A stretch of DNA of 64,000 nt from an uncultured Lachnospiraceae bacterium (GTDB lineage Bacteria; Bacillota; Clostridia; Lachnospirales; Lachnospiraceae). The notes beneath the pieces were generated by a model, which saw nothing but the letters and a program-made list of their open reading frames with translations, had not been told where the DNA came from and made no database searches. Where the stretch lies: the NCBI GenBank assembly GCA_900316665.1, contig ONDV01000002.1, positions 1 through 64,000 of the forward strand, given 5' to 3'. Positions 47,416 through 52,157 of this stretch are shown here, one piece after another (the first letter of the stretch is position 1; each line of letters begins with the position of its first letter). The position numbers were made by a program, and so were the translations under genes.

Positions 47416-48039
47416 TTATAGAGATGAAAGTGATGAAACGGCCTTGTTTTTTATTACCGCTACGGGATGTTTGTTCGAACCTCCGGCGTATTGAAAAATG
47501 CTTCCGTATTCCGCCAGATGAAAAAGAAGTTTTGATCTGACATCATCTGAAATATCGCGGGTCTCCAGGGACATCATGTATTCGTGTGAGTCCGGAATAC
47601 TGTAGAGTGAGCTCTTTCCACTGAAGAAAGGTGCAATGATCCTGGATGCGCTGATGGCATCTTTAAGAGTCTTGAACCTGACAAATATAAATCCGGAAGG
47701 TGAAAAATGATTTTTTCCGGATGGTTTTATAGCTCTTTCATCCAGTGGAATGTATTTTGAAAATCTGGCGAATCTGTTGTCAAGCTCCTCAAGAGAATCA
47801 GCAGCACTGATCGTAAACAGTATATCTCCGCCCGGAAGCGGCACGGCTTCCGTCATAATCGGATTTTCGCTTATGTCAAAATTCAGCTTACGGTATGCAA
47901 TATCGAGAAGCATGGCTGTAAAGCCTGTCATGAAGCGGCTGCCGTATCTGAATTGATCTAATGTGATCTTTTTTTCTTTTAATTCGTCCATTTCTATTAA
48001 GAAGCGGACTGAAGTATCGCTTATTTTTTTAAATTTCAA
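47416..48039 (-). CDS. mecA: Adaptor protein MecA
   Basis: A 207-residue MecA-type adaptor, which delivers substrates to the ClpCP protease. The N-terminal domain starts MKFKKISDTSVRFLIEMDEL. The C-terminal domain has FIFVRFKTLKDAISASRIIAPFFSGKSSLY, the ClpC-binding core, and a final GGSNKHPVAVI segment. Convergent with the upstream DUF1858 gene; a 250-base divergent intergenic gap separates it from the kinase-like gene. Confidence 0.85.
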   Translation of the reverse strand: MKFKKISDTSVRFLIEMDELKEKKITLDQFRYGSRFMTGFTAMLLDIAYRKLNFDISENPIMTEAVPLPGGDILFTISAADSLEELDNRFARFSKYIPLDERAIKPSGKNHFSPSGFIFVRFKTLKDAISASRIIAPFFSGKSSLYSIPDSHEYMMSLETRDISDDVRSKLLFHLAEYGSIFQYAGGSNKHPVAVIKNKAVSSLSSL

Positions 48040-48289: not shown

Positions 48290-49555
48290 ATGGAGAACGG
48301 GATATATGAAACGGTAAAAGTCCTGAAGAAAACAGTTGACGTGGAAGTGTCACTCGTCCGGCACGTACAGCTCGACAGGCTGAGGATAAGAAAGAAAATC
48401 CGGATAGGAAATGACATCCAGGGTCAGAAGGAAGCATATATTCTCAGAGATCTTGATCATCCGGGGATTCCTGTTCTCTATGATCTGACGGTTCATGAGG
48501 GAATAATGGAGCTGATCGAGGAATATGCCGAGGGGGAGAGTCTGTCAGACTTTCTTCTCTCACATGTTATGACGGAAAGAGAAATAGTAGATATAGCATA
48601 TAAAGTAGCAAAGATACTGGCATATCTTCACGGACACGGCATATCGCACAGGGATCTGAAGCCGGAGCACATAATCATACGCGGGAAGAGTGTAAAACTA
48701 ATTGATTACGGTATATCAGGCCTGGCGGATGATAAAACGAAATGCAGGTTTGGAACAGGCAGATATATGCCGGCTGATGGAAGTGTTTCTGATGGTAAGG
48801 CGGCAGATATTTTTTCCTTTGCAATCATAATCGAGGAGATGGTAAATGCTTCACATTGCAGCATGTCATATTCTTTGAGGAGGATCATAAGGAAGGGAAA
48901 GAATAGAGAGTCAGGCGGACGCTACAGGTCTTTTGATGAGATCCTGCCTGATTTATTACGCTGCAGCAGGAGAAATGATCTTTCTCTTCCACGAGAACTT
49001 CCGTCTTCCATTGCCGTTGCCGGTTTTCAAAGGGGCTGTGGCTGTACTCACATAGCAATTTCCCTCACGATACTTTTCAGGCACGCGGGACAGGATGCCT
49101 GGTACGACGGTCTTCAGAAAGGCAATCTGGAGAATATACTGATGACTGACGAAGCGTTCGAAGAAAGACAGGGGATCATATACCACGAATTGTTTGAAGG
49201 CATGGAAGATTACGGCTCCAGCGCCGAAAAACAGATACCTCCTGACGGAATCAGAATAATCGACCGCGGAGACGGATATTCGGGAGGGGATGCCGAACTG
49301 GATATTTATGTTATCTCAGGCAGCCTCTGGAAGATGAGACGTACACCGGCAGATGCCGGGCTGCCTGATATGTTTATGGTGAATCCATGGAATCGCCATG
49401 CTGCACGTAAATTAATTGAAGAATATCCGGATATTCCTGTTATGGGATTTCCGGCTGACGGAGATGCGTTTTCCATAACAGAGGAGAAGAAAGTATTTTT
49501 CAGATCATTTCTAAAAATTGTAAAAAAAGACATCTCATCAGTGATGAGAGGATGA
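48290..49555 (+). CDS. Atypical Ser/Thr kinase fused to a degenerate P-loop domain
   Basis: A 421-residue protein. Residues 1-210 form a Hanks-type kinase fold with HGISHRDLKPEHIII near 119 (HRD Asp present, the usual Asn replaced by His) and IDYGISG in place of DFG near 139. The Gly-rich loop is lost (VLKKTVDVEV), though a Lys is present (RKKI). Residues 235-420 look like a SIMIBI/CpaE-type ATPase with a deviant P-loop AGFQRGCGCTH that lacks the catalytic Lys. AAAGGAGG precedes the start. It may be a pseudokinase or a weak kinase. Confidence 0.75.
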   Translation: MENGIYETVKVLKKTVDVEVSLVRHVQLDRLRIRKKIRIGNDIQGQKEAYILRDLDHPGIPVLYDLTVHEGIMELIEEYAEGESLSDFLLSHVMTEREIVDIAYKVAKILAYLHGHGISHRDLKPEHIIIRGKSVKLIDYGISGLADDKTKCRFGTGRYMPADGSVSDGKAADIFSFAIIIEEMVNASHCSMSYSLRRIIRKGKNRESGGRYRSFDEILPDLLRCSRRNDLSLPRELPSSIAVAGFQRGCGCTHIAISLTILFRHAGQDAWYDGLQKGNLENILMTDEAFEERQGIIYHELFEGMEDYGSSAEKQIPPDGIRIIDRGDGYSGGDAELDIYVISGSLWKMRRTPADAGLPDMFMVNPWNRHAARKLIEEYPDIPVMGFPADGDAFSITEEKKVFFRSFLKIVKKDISSVMRG

Positions 49556-50220
49556 GAGTGTATATTCTGGGTGCATCCGGAGAAAGCTGTATATCGATGG
49601 CTCTTTCTTTTTCTTATTATTTTTCGGAGGTTCAGAGAAAGAAGACATGTCTTATAGAATTCTGTCCGGACAGGAAAAAGAGCGTCATGGATGTCCTCTT
49701 GACTGACCGGATATCAGTCAATCGTGAAACGATAGGATTTATAAAAAATGGAGTTAAGATATATCCGGGAATTGACATTGAAGAGACAGTAAGGATCGCG
49801 GAATCGGGATTTGAACGAAGCGTGATCCTAATGGAATGTGTTTCCAAAGAAATAATTTCATCTGCAGAAAGAGGAAATCTGAAGATCATTGTCGGAAGTC
49901 TGAGGAGCTGGAAGAAAAAAGAATTTTTCGAATTCATCAGAGAATGGAGATACAAAAATGAAATGCTCAGGGGCTTTAGATGCTTTGCGGCGAACAGCAA
50001 TGAGCTGGAGAGAGATGAATTCGAAAGAAAGACCGGTCTTGCAATATATAATTATCCGGAGATAAATCCTGACTGCATGATGGATAGTGACCGTTTGTGG
50101 CTCAGAGATACACTGAAGAAGGAGGCGGGGACAAAAAATAAGTGTAGAGGGTTGAAGAAGAATGTAAGAACAGGAAACAAAAGGACAAGAATAAAAACAG
50201 ATAGAAGGATAAAAAAATAA
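49552..50220 (+). CDS. Degenerate P-loop-like partner of the kinase gene
   Basis: A 222-residue protein overlapping the kinase-like gene by four bases. The start, MRVYILGASGESCISMALSFSYYF, copies the shape of a MinD/CpaE P-loop with no Lys. A beta strand (CLIEFCPDRKK) follows at the place of the Walker A' strand. The C-terminal 45 residues are highly basic and Lys/Arg-rich, perhaps contacting nucleic acid or membrane. Not assigned to a known family. Confidence 0.6.
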   Translation: MRVYILGASGESCISMALSFSYYFSEVQRKKTCLIEFCPDRKKSVMDVLLTDRISVNRETIGFIKNGVKIYPGIDIEETVRIAESGFERSVILMECVSKEIISSAERGNLKIIVGSLRSWKKKEFFEFIREWRYKNEMLRGFRCFAANSNELERDEFERKTGLAIYNYPEINPDCMMDSDRLWLRDTLKKEAGTKNKCRGLKKNVRTGNKRTRIKTDRRIKK

Positions 50221-50432: not shown

Positions 50433-52157
50433 ATGGCAGAAGATGAGATAGGGAAAGATCAGAAATCAATAAAAGGGAAAAACGGGGTATTAATACTGAC
50501 TATAACTGTCTTTATTATTACAGTCATGTTTTCAATAATTCTTGTAAAGAAGTATGCACCGTCAAAGGAGAAGATGCCGCTTAATGATTATTTTGGCGTG
50601 AAGGGAAAGGGATGTGCTGTGGTCCTGAACGGAAAGCTGATGAAGCCATACTATGCAATTGTTTCTTCGGACAGAGTCTATCTTTCTCTTGATTTCATAA
50701 AGTCGAATCTTGATGACGGATATGTATATGACAGCGATGACAAGATCTTAAGATATGCGACTGACAGGCAGATCATATCCGTTGCCGCAGGCGATGATCA
50801 TTATTATTCCGATAAGGAATATAAGAAGGCGGAAGCTGAAATATTGGTTGAAGCTGATGGGGAAGCGTATCTTGACCTTGAGTGGATAAAAAAGTATACG
50901 GATTTTGAAAGTTATGTGAAGAAGGATCCGAGCCGTGTCATTTTAAGCACTGCGGGATGGAAATATAAGACGGCAGCAGTAAAGAGTGATACATATCTCA
51001 GGCGGCACGGCGGCGTCAAGAGCCCTATACTTGGAACCGTAAAGAAGGGTGAAAAGGTAATTATTCTGGAAAATTACGGGAAATGGAAGTTCGTGCAGTC
51101 TGAAGATGGAATTCAGGGATGCCTTATGTCAAAGACACTTGAACCATCGAAGACAGTGACAGTAAAAAAGAGTCTTCCGAAGAGAAAATACAGCCATACT
51201 AAATTCAAGGGGAAGGTATGTCTCCTCTGGCATCAGCTGACAAATGCAAATGCGAACAGCTCAATTGATAAGGTGCTGTCGACCAGAGGACCAGTAAATG
51301 TTATATCGCCGACATGGTATTCGCTTTCAGACAATAATGGGAATATCTCGGATATATCTGATACAGCTTATGTGAATAAATGCCACAGCGTCGGAGTCCA
51401 GGTATGGGGACTGGTTTCGAATTTTGGAAAAGACGATGTGGATTCGACATTAGTATTGAATTCTACAACTAAGAGAGATGCCCTGATAGGAAATATTCTC
51501 GCTGCTGCGATAAAAAGTGATCTGGATGGGATCAATATTGATTTTGAGTCTCTTTCTAAAAACGCACAGGACGGATATATAGAATTTATACGTGAACTTG
51601 CTCTTAAGTGCAGAAAGAATGATATTATTCTTTCTGTGGATAATTATAAGCCAACTGGCTATACACAGTTTTATAACAGAAAGGTACAGGCTGATTATGC
51701 TGATTATGTAGTGCTGATGGCTTATGATGAACATTACAGCGGAAGCAAAAAGGCAGGTTCGAATTCCTCTATAAGCTTTGTAAAGACAGGAATAAGTGAT
51801 ACCTTAAAAGAAGTGCCGAAAGACGAACTTATACTGGCGCTGCCTTTCTATACAAGAGTCTTTACGGTAAACAGTTCAAACGCAGTCGTGTCTTCGAAGG
51901 CGCTTGGGATGAAAGCGGCATCTGATCTGGTCGAAAGCTGGGGAACCGAAAAGACCTGGGATGAGAAGAAGGGTCAGTATTTTGCGTCTGTAGAAAACAG
52001 TGACGGAACAAAGAGTGAAGTATGGCTTGAAGATGCCAGGAGTCTCGGACTAAAGCTTGACGAGATGAAGGAAAACAAGCTGGCAGGAGCGGCTTTCTGG
52101 AAATCAGGATTTGAGACCTCTGACATATGGGATACCGTAACTCCTTATTTTAATTGA
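50433..52157 (+). CDS. Membrane-anchored GH18 glycoside hydrolase with SH3 domain
   Basis: A 574-residue extracellular protein. A single N-terminal membrane helix (residues 20-42) anchors it. Residues 50-180 look like a copper-amine-oxidase-N-type repeat, an SH3b domain follows around 185-245, and the GH18 barrel from about 260 to the end has the catalytic LDGINIDFESL near residue 365. The family includes spore cortex and cell wall hydrolases such as SleL/YaaH type enzymes. Substrate unproven. Confidence 0.85.
   Translation: MAEDEIGKDQKSIKGKNGVLILTITVFIITVMFSIILVKKYAPSKEKMPLNDYFGVKGKGCAVVLNGKLMKPYYAIVSSDRVYLSLDFIKSNLDDGYVYDSDDKILRYATDRQIISVAAGDDHYYSDKEYKKAEAEILVEADGEAYLDLEWIKKYTDFESYVKKDPSRVILSTAGWKYKTAAVKSDTYLRRHGGVKSPILGTVKKGEKVIILENYGKWKFVQSEDGIQGCLMSKTLEPSKTVTVKKSLPKRKYSHTKFKGKVCLLWHQLTNANANSSIDKVLSTRGPVNVISPTWYSLSDNNGNISDISDTAYVNKCHSVGVQVWGLVSNFGKDDVDSTLVLNSTTKRDALIGNILAAAIKSDLDGINIDFESLSKNAQDGYIEFIRELALKCRKNDIILSVDNYKPTGYTQFYNRKVQADYADYVVLMAYDEHYSGSKKAGSNSSISFVKTGISDTLKEVPKDELILALPFYTRVFTVNSSNAVVSSKALGMKAASDLVESWGTEKTWDEKKGQYFASVENSDGTKSEVWLEDARSLGLKLDEMKENKLAGAAFWKSGFETSDIWDTVTPYFN

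Follow-up and report, generated by a model that had tools for sequence, protein, structure and literature searches.

In other families of the order Lachnospirales, a gene pair encoding a kinase-SIMIBI protein and a second SIMIBI protein heads a Tad-like operon, and the split, orphan, fused and empty states of the locus form a series; both observations are new here. We studied the pair (48290..50220) in the window, a stretch of 64,000 nucleotides from contig ONDV01000002.1 of an uncultured Lachnospiraceae bacterium. With somewhat better than even confidence, we read it as a kinase tethered to a heterodimeric switch of TadZ type that came from a Tad-like machine and is now orphaned.

The first protein, P0001 (48290..49555, forward strand, 421 aa), joins a kinase to a Lys-less, TadZ-like SIMIBI domain, and the second, P0002 (49552..50220, forward strand, 222 aa), is a stand-alone second SIMIBI copy (c3 type). 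Neither reading frame is interrupted, and the two share 4 bases; the coordinates and the overlap given in the initial annotation are correct. In P0001, the PknB/StkP-like Ser/Thr kinase domain, which is without a Gly-rich loop, spans residues 1–230 (48290..48979, forward strand), and the C-terminal SIMIBI domain (KC type, the same domain as P0002) spans residues 231–421 (48980..49552, forward strand). The site is marked upstream by a divergent mecA homologue (47416..48039, reverse strand; PF05389, 2.4e-24; present in 41/41 chosen loci) and downstream by an SH3/GH18 protein (50433..52157, forward strand; PF00704, 6.9e-24; 40/41 chosen loci).

Pfam Pkinase matches P0001 at 4.2e-26 (92.4 bits, cut-off 31.7), and the best PDB matches of the kinase-family profile are PknB/Stk1 kinases. 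The initial annotation had noted HRD, DYG, no Gly-rich loop and a His at the metal-binding Asn position, and all four hold: the catalytic loop reads HRDLKPEH (residues 120–127; 48647..48670, forward strand) with His127 at the Asn position, the DFG-equivalent is DYG (residues 139–141; 48704..48712, forward strand), and no GxGxxG precedes Lys35 (YETVKVLKKTVDVEVSLVR). The APE position reads PAD, and the Gly-loop, the catalytic-loop Asn and APE are all three missing. The label “pseudokinase” that had been attached to these features is nevertheless not supported, since neither the catalytic Lys nor a catalytic Asp is lost: Lys35 (the VAIK-type Lys; 48392..48394, forward strand), Glu48 (alpha-C), Asp122 (HRD), Asp139 (DFG) and Asp173 are retained in 54/54 aligned family kinase domains. 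Of 41 family kinases from loci chosen by kinase similarity, 22 have His and 19 have Asn at residue 127, so that His127 is a family variant; a separate Asn-to-His count in named-record loci was discarded because one search pattern itself required that His. A Gly-loop is present in 26/41 aligned family kinases (frames read up to the previous stop), and those without it are mostly nearer relatives of the window protein. Because the nine kinases parsed from operons of other families in the order have the Asn in 9/9 and the Gly-loop in 7/9, the loss of both in the window kinase is probably a derived state. P0001 shares with PknB, StkP and PrkC the kinase fold and the catalytic Lys, Glu, Asp and Asp, but it has no PASTA or transmembrane part, carries a SIMIBI tail and has lost the Gly-loop and the Asn; it is a Hanks-type Ser/Thr kinase, most likely still able to transfer phosphate.

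P0002 matches no Pfam or NCBIfam family, and the P0001 tail is likewise unnamed by both libraries. Profiles of the two domain types nevertheless align with each other (hhalign 99.8%, E = 5.6e-28, 183 columns, 35 P0002-type vs. 36 kinase-tail proteins), and by this measure P0002 is a paralogue, or second copy, of the P0001 C-terminal domain. The AlphaFold models have a pLDDT of 85.7 for P0001 and about 86 (86.1) for P0002. Structures similar to the P0002 model are SIMIBI proteins of the ParA/MinD type (Foldseek E = 1.4e-6; in VIA, Z reaches 14.4 over 189 residues), including ParA, MinD, FlhG, HypB and 3fkq. The last of these, from E. rectale, bears the PDB title of an NtrC-like two-domain protein and is, we take it, TadZ; its match (Z = 12.8, rmsd 3.8, 179 residues) is tied with those of other ParA/MinD proteins, rows up to 1 Z unit apart being counted as tied. 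The SIMIBI profiles reach SRP54 at 3.7e-5, and the kinase-tail profile reaches ParA, Soj and FleN in the PDB weakly (E = 0.025–0.5). The SIMIBI fold is thus assigned to P0002 by structural matches and to P0001 by its profile link to P0002; together with the Pkinase match and the models of both proteins, this agrees with the kinase and SIMIBI folds that the initial annotation had expected structure prediction to recover. Sequence comparison with TadZ itself is less clear. The similarity of the SIMIBI domain to the genome's own TadZ, which is itself diverged, is marginal at most (hhalign 27% and 0.5%), and relatives give sub-cut-off CpaE_hom_Actino scores. Solved structures were also searched with the sequence of this TadZ and with that of a relative combining receiver and SIMIBI domains, and nothing useful came back.

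The P-loop of the P0001 tail (GFQRGCGCTH; 49022..49051, forward strand) has no Walker A Lys, as had been read from AGFQRGCGCTH, and this Lys is missing in 41/41 kinase tails and in 37/37 P0002-type proteins (2 of the 37 being gapped there). Thr253 and His254 are each found in 38/41 kinase tails, and GxGxTH aligns where GKT sits in the P-loops of the Soj/FleN/SRP54 type; the pair shares fold and P-loop position with MinD, FlhG, FleN and ParA but not the Walker lysine. P0002 had been said to begin with the same kind of degenerate P-loop. It is indeed Lys-less; in the alignment with its 37 relatives, however, its motif (GASGESCI; 49570..49593, forward strand) is strongly eroded, more so than that description implied. 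The strongly basic C-terminal tail reported for P0002 (50128..50217, forward strand) is real, its final 30 residues having a net charge of +13, but it is a feature of this lineage only, since the 37 proteins in the alignment have a median of 0; low model confidence suggests that it is probably disordered.

In these alignments the Lys-less Walker A is family-wide and TadZ-like. Where TadZ/CpaE has a receiver-like N-terminal domain, P0001 has a Ser/Thr kinase and P0002 has nothing, and there are two different copies here with no clear sequence match to TadZ. Published work reports that the deviant Walker A of E. rectale TadZ, which has an atypical receiver domain alongside, binds ATP for dimerisation (PMC13170226), that the protein has ATPase activity despite the loss of both lysines, a lysine of a neighbouring helix substituting for them (PMC10482377), and that TadZ binds ATP, dimerises and hydrolyses slowly (PMC13170226, PMC10482377, PMC6668835). 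Given these accounts of Lys-less TadZ, a missing Walker lysine does not imply an inert domain, and the initial argument from inactive ATPase domains to a scaffold was too strong.

P0001 and P0002 were each searched against 397 genomes of the family Lachnospiraceae, followed by a P0002-type profile search, which gave matches in 125/397 genomes, some of them other SIMIBI proteins; the family proved to be dispersed. The pairing is not a chance one: for 83 of 90 stand-alone second-gene matches taken from the 397-genome search, a P0001-like kinase lies within 2.6 kb. We then compared 41 loci, namely the window and 40 regions from the best P0001 matches, a choice that accounts for the kinase being present in 41/41. 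The second gene is clustered with it in 37/41 (the exceptions being L072, L081, L085 and L096; the second gene of L085 was detected by profile), at a spacing of no more than 85 bp in 37/37 and overlapping in 23/37. The co-occurrence in Lachnospiraceae on which the initial annotation had staked the pair is therefore found. In named-record loci (the best 80 of 151), the second gene stands beside the kinase in 71/80, the hosts being Roseburia, Pseudobutyrivibrio, Butyrivibrio fibrisolvens 16/4, Agathobacter, unnamed Lachnospiraceae and a small number of bins that bear other names. P0001 and P0002 are 37% and 29% identical to their counterparts in a same-genus relative, compared with 75–89% for sua5, dcmp and atpB; by these identities the pair evolves fast. 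Two further observations concern the site. The window mecA (47416–48039) is unusually diverged, with 31% identity to the same-genus relative vs. 47–82% in five non-window pairs, and a conserved small protein of ∼70–115 aa with an LREIHFDRV-like ending lies between the pair and GH18 in 8/41 loci (e.g., L081:9781-10020 and L089:10864-11142; one was tested and had no Pfam match).

When 146 genomes of the order were searched by profile, 24 gave matches, three of them in the window's family, and 17 regions were fetched, 12 of which contain a kinase-SIMIBI protein. The pair or its fused form stands in a Tad-like run in 7 of these 12 kinase loci (L269, L271, L273, L276, L278, L279 and L282), and in two more (L268 and L270) the contig ends too early. 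The Tad neighbours suggested by the initial annotation thus do exist, though in families of the order other than the window's own. The run reads kinase-SIMIBI, stand-alone SIMIBI, SAF, X201, SIM277, motor and, last, a platform-like protein of large size; in L276 and L279 the stand-alone SIMIBI is fused to the kinase, and a small pilin-like protein was matched in 7/7 full runs. SIM277 is a third Lys-less SIMIBI protein (hhalign to the c3 type 96%, E = 3.1e-9). The motor retains G-x-G-K-T, and the best solved relatives of its profile are CpaF (3.9e-22), then FlaI (1e-9) and PilT/VirB11; the names of Tad parts beyond the motor rest on weak scores, the SAF protein matching CpaB at 7.8e-7, below the cut-off. 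In profile tests the platform-like protein had no detectable similarity to TadB/TadC or T2SSF, nor any other resemblance, so that it is the motor, SAF and SIMIBI proteins that justify the term “Tad-like”; “platform” and “pilin-like” are our reading of hydrophobic stretches and operon position.

These operons thus share with Tad/type IVc pili a CpaF-type motor, a CpaB-like SAF protein, proteins of TadZ type and small proteins that are hydrophobic in a single stretch near the N terminus, but differ from them in a platform of ∼485–690 aa without T2SSF similarity, in up to three SIMIBI proteins and in the kinase; neither a prepilin peptidase nor a Flp-family pilin was identified in them. The operon of L269 lies at the same site as the pair in the window, with mecA divergent alongside and one 300 aa ORF between. 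In L271 the pair is beside genes that we read as prs- and glmU-like.

P0002-type P-loop domains also occur without the kinase. Behind what we read as a receiver-like stretch, the domain is found in L204–L206, L210–L212, L214 and L215, and in L206:569-14910 a SAF-X201-SIM277-motor cassette lies beside VirD4-, TrbL- and VirB4-type genes and a C39-type peptidase. In Thermobacillus composti and Paenibacillus sp. 37 (L298 and L299), plasmids carry a SAF-X201-SIM277-TadA-platform-pilin-like set, whose annotations include SAF protein, ParA and, for the motor, “Flp pilus assembly complex ATPase component TadA”; on the large Thermobacillus/Paenibacillus plasmids a P0002-type domain lies just upstream of the set, with S-layer and DUF5704 proteins nearby. 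P0002-type domains were also seen in long proteins with charged, repetitive middles (L207:8636-11326, 896 aa; L209:6715-9039, 774 aa), in a genome that has a fused kinase as well. An ordinary tad locus (L113:9622-18718, ∼72.6–81.7 kb on the window's contig and so outside the window) lies ∼22 kb downstream of the pair and contains a prepilin peptidase, a TadZ-like protein whose P-loop is also lost, CpaF, T2SSF-type proteins, Flp1, DUF5702, TadE and a DUF6382-FHA protein. Elsewhere in the window genome, L115:122-4553 is a second, small operon that encodes a 447 aa ATPase resembling CpaF, a membrane-type protein of 449 aa and small N-terminally hydrophobic proteins.

Within Lachnospiraceae, we searched for the platform protein in 44 genomes, 41 with a kinase locus and three positive controls (3/3 matched). 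It was found in 11/41, namely 6/6 genomes with SAF at the kinase locus and 5/35 without (Fisher P = 1.0e-4). Ten of the 11 platform loci were fetched (G158 was excluded, being at a contig end), and SAF lies at the platform/motor locus in 5/5 genomes without SAF at the kinase locus and in 0/5 with SAF there. Since SAF sits at one locus or the other in this complementary manner, the two loci appear to be the two parts of a single machine. Neither a SAF nor a platform match was obtained in the window genome (97 draft contigs, 96.7% complete), so the machine itself is absent from the evidence there; the two CpaF-like ATPases scored from it, in L113 and L115, at 65 and 32 bits, score far below the family motor members. 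Retention of neither kinase motif was associated with the machine (Gly-loop: 8/11 with, 18/30 without, P = 0.72; Asn: 8/11 with, 11/30 without, P = 0.075, not significant).

Fused and empty states complete the series. In 11 of 14 further loci, the kinase tail scores as P0002 type and there is no separate second gene, and at least one fusion (the pair L216/L245) is nested among two-gene relatives in both trees, which are FastTree trees with mixed support, the “fused” set of one wrongly including two kinase-tail proteins (L254 and L255). Such a reversion to a single fusion suggests that the kinase tail can be replaced by the second copy. Among 13 regions from genomes where no pair had been listed, seven have mecA and GH18 facing each other with only small ORFs between, four of these empty sites coming from the window's genus (L237, L241, L243 and L244); the other six have additional mecA copies in different surroundings, lack GH18 or, in L234, have an unclassified protein of 213 aa at the site. 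From this series we infer that the orphan pair of the window is a reduced state derived from a machine-bearing ancestor.

We envisage that the ancestral pair headed a Tad-like (type IVc pilus-like) gene set and was later detached from the machine. In the simplest model, a TadZ-like dimer would position the machine and one half would in the kinase branch carry the kinase, duplication having replaced a TadZ homodimer with an asymmetric heterodimer of the P0001 and P0002 SIMIBI domains. The P0001 kinase would be tethered via its C-terminal TadZ/CpaE-like domain, and the two SIMIBI domains most likely pair with each other, bind nucleotide without the Walker lysine and form a slow platform at the membrane or the pole, by which the kinase is put in place and its contact with substrate is controlled. 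Where the system is complete, this platform would serve a CpaF-type motor and the SAF/CpaB-like membrane protein. As motor and SAF partners were not found in the window genome, the pair would act there alone or with another, perhaps new, partner, or would be a remnant.

The last possibility, that motor, platform and SAF are lost and the pair is on its way out with little or no function here, is to us somewhat unlikely. The missing Gly-loop, Asn, APE and P-loop motifs, the low identity between relatives and the four empty mecA–GH18 sites in the window's own genus all agree with decay; against it, both frames are intact and overlapping, the Lys, the Glu, both Asp and GxGxTH persist, and the pair stays together in most of those best 80 named-record loci. 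The loss of kinase motifs and the erosion of the P-loop would fit decay as well as a specialised switch. The missing Gly-loop, His127 and the missing Walker lysines underlie the proposal of a signalling scaffold, in which other proteins would be brought together by a pseudokinase and two inactive ATPase domains. This we regard as distinctly unlikely, given the catalytic Lys, Glu and two Asp in 54/54 kinase domains and the ATP binding reported for Lys-less TadZ (PMC13170226, PMC10482377); in the window genome specifically the pair may yet serve as a scaffold.

The neighbourhood invites two other readings, and the rivals are not all mutually exclusive. The locus with TadZ, CpaF, Flp1 and DUF6382-FHA ∼22 kb downstream might have the pair as an accessory, the FHA protein serving as phospho-reader. 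DUF6382 occurs, however, in 384/397 family genomes and P0002-type profile matches in 125, so the ordinary tad locus does not need the pair, and we think such a role unlikely; as a marker of Tad co-occurrence DUF6382 was discarded as uninformative, the family being nearly universal. Least probable, in our view, is that the pair regulates proteolysis by MecA/ClpC or the cell-wall enzyme GH18. In almost every chosen Lachnospiraceae locus it does lie between mecA and GH18, but the two are adjacent without it in 7/13 regions, and in L271 it lies in the prs-/glmU-like setting. The neighbourhood thus looks like a matter of position and not of partnership, and after the empty sites were seen we set it aside as a functional clue. 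We return to the TadZ-like switch as the preferred reading. Its extension, in which a kinase in a TadZ-like platform governs a Bacillota Tad-like pilus or secretion machine, an asymmetric, slow switch of kinase-TadZ and its Lys-less paralogue couples motor assembly to phosphorylation, and the switch has repeatedly been split off, fused or kept alone after motor loss, is one that we offer tentatively, as a possibility short of even confidence.

No description of a kinase-TadZ fusion was found in the literature searched, which lay mostly outside subscription journals. In gut Lachnospirales, a eukaryotic-type kinase is physically linked to that component of a pilus-type machine which resembles TadZ, and a kinase-less version of the gene set is present on plasmids of Bacilli and also next to conjugation genes. 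Full operon, split machine, orphan pair, fused protein and empty site provide ready comparisons, and this natural series lets one ask what roles the kinase and the Lys-less ATPase fold play.
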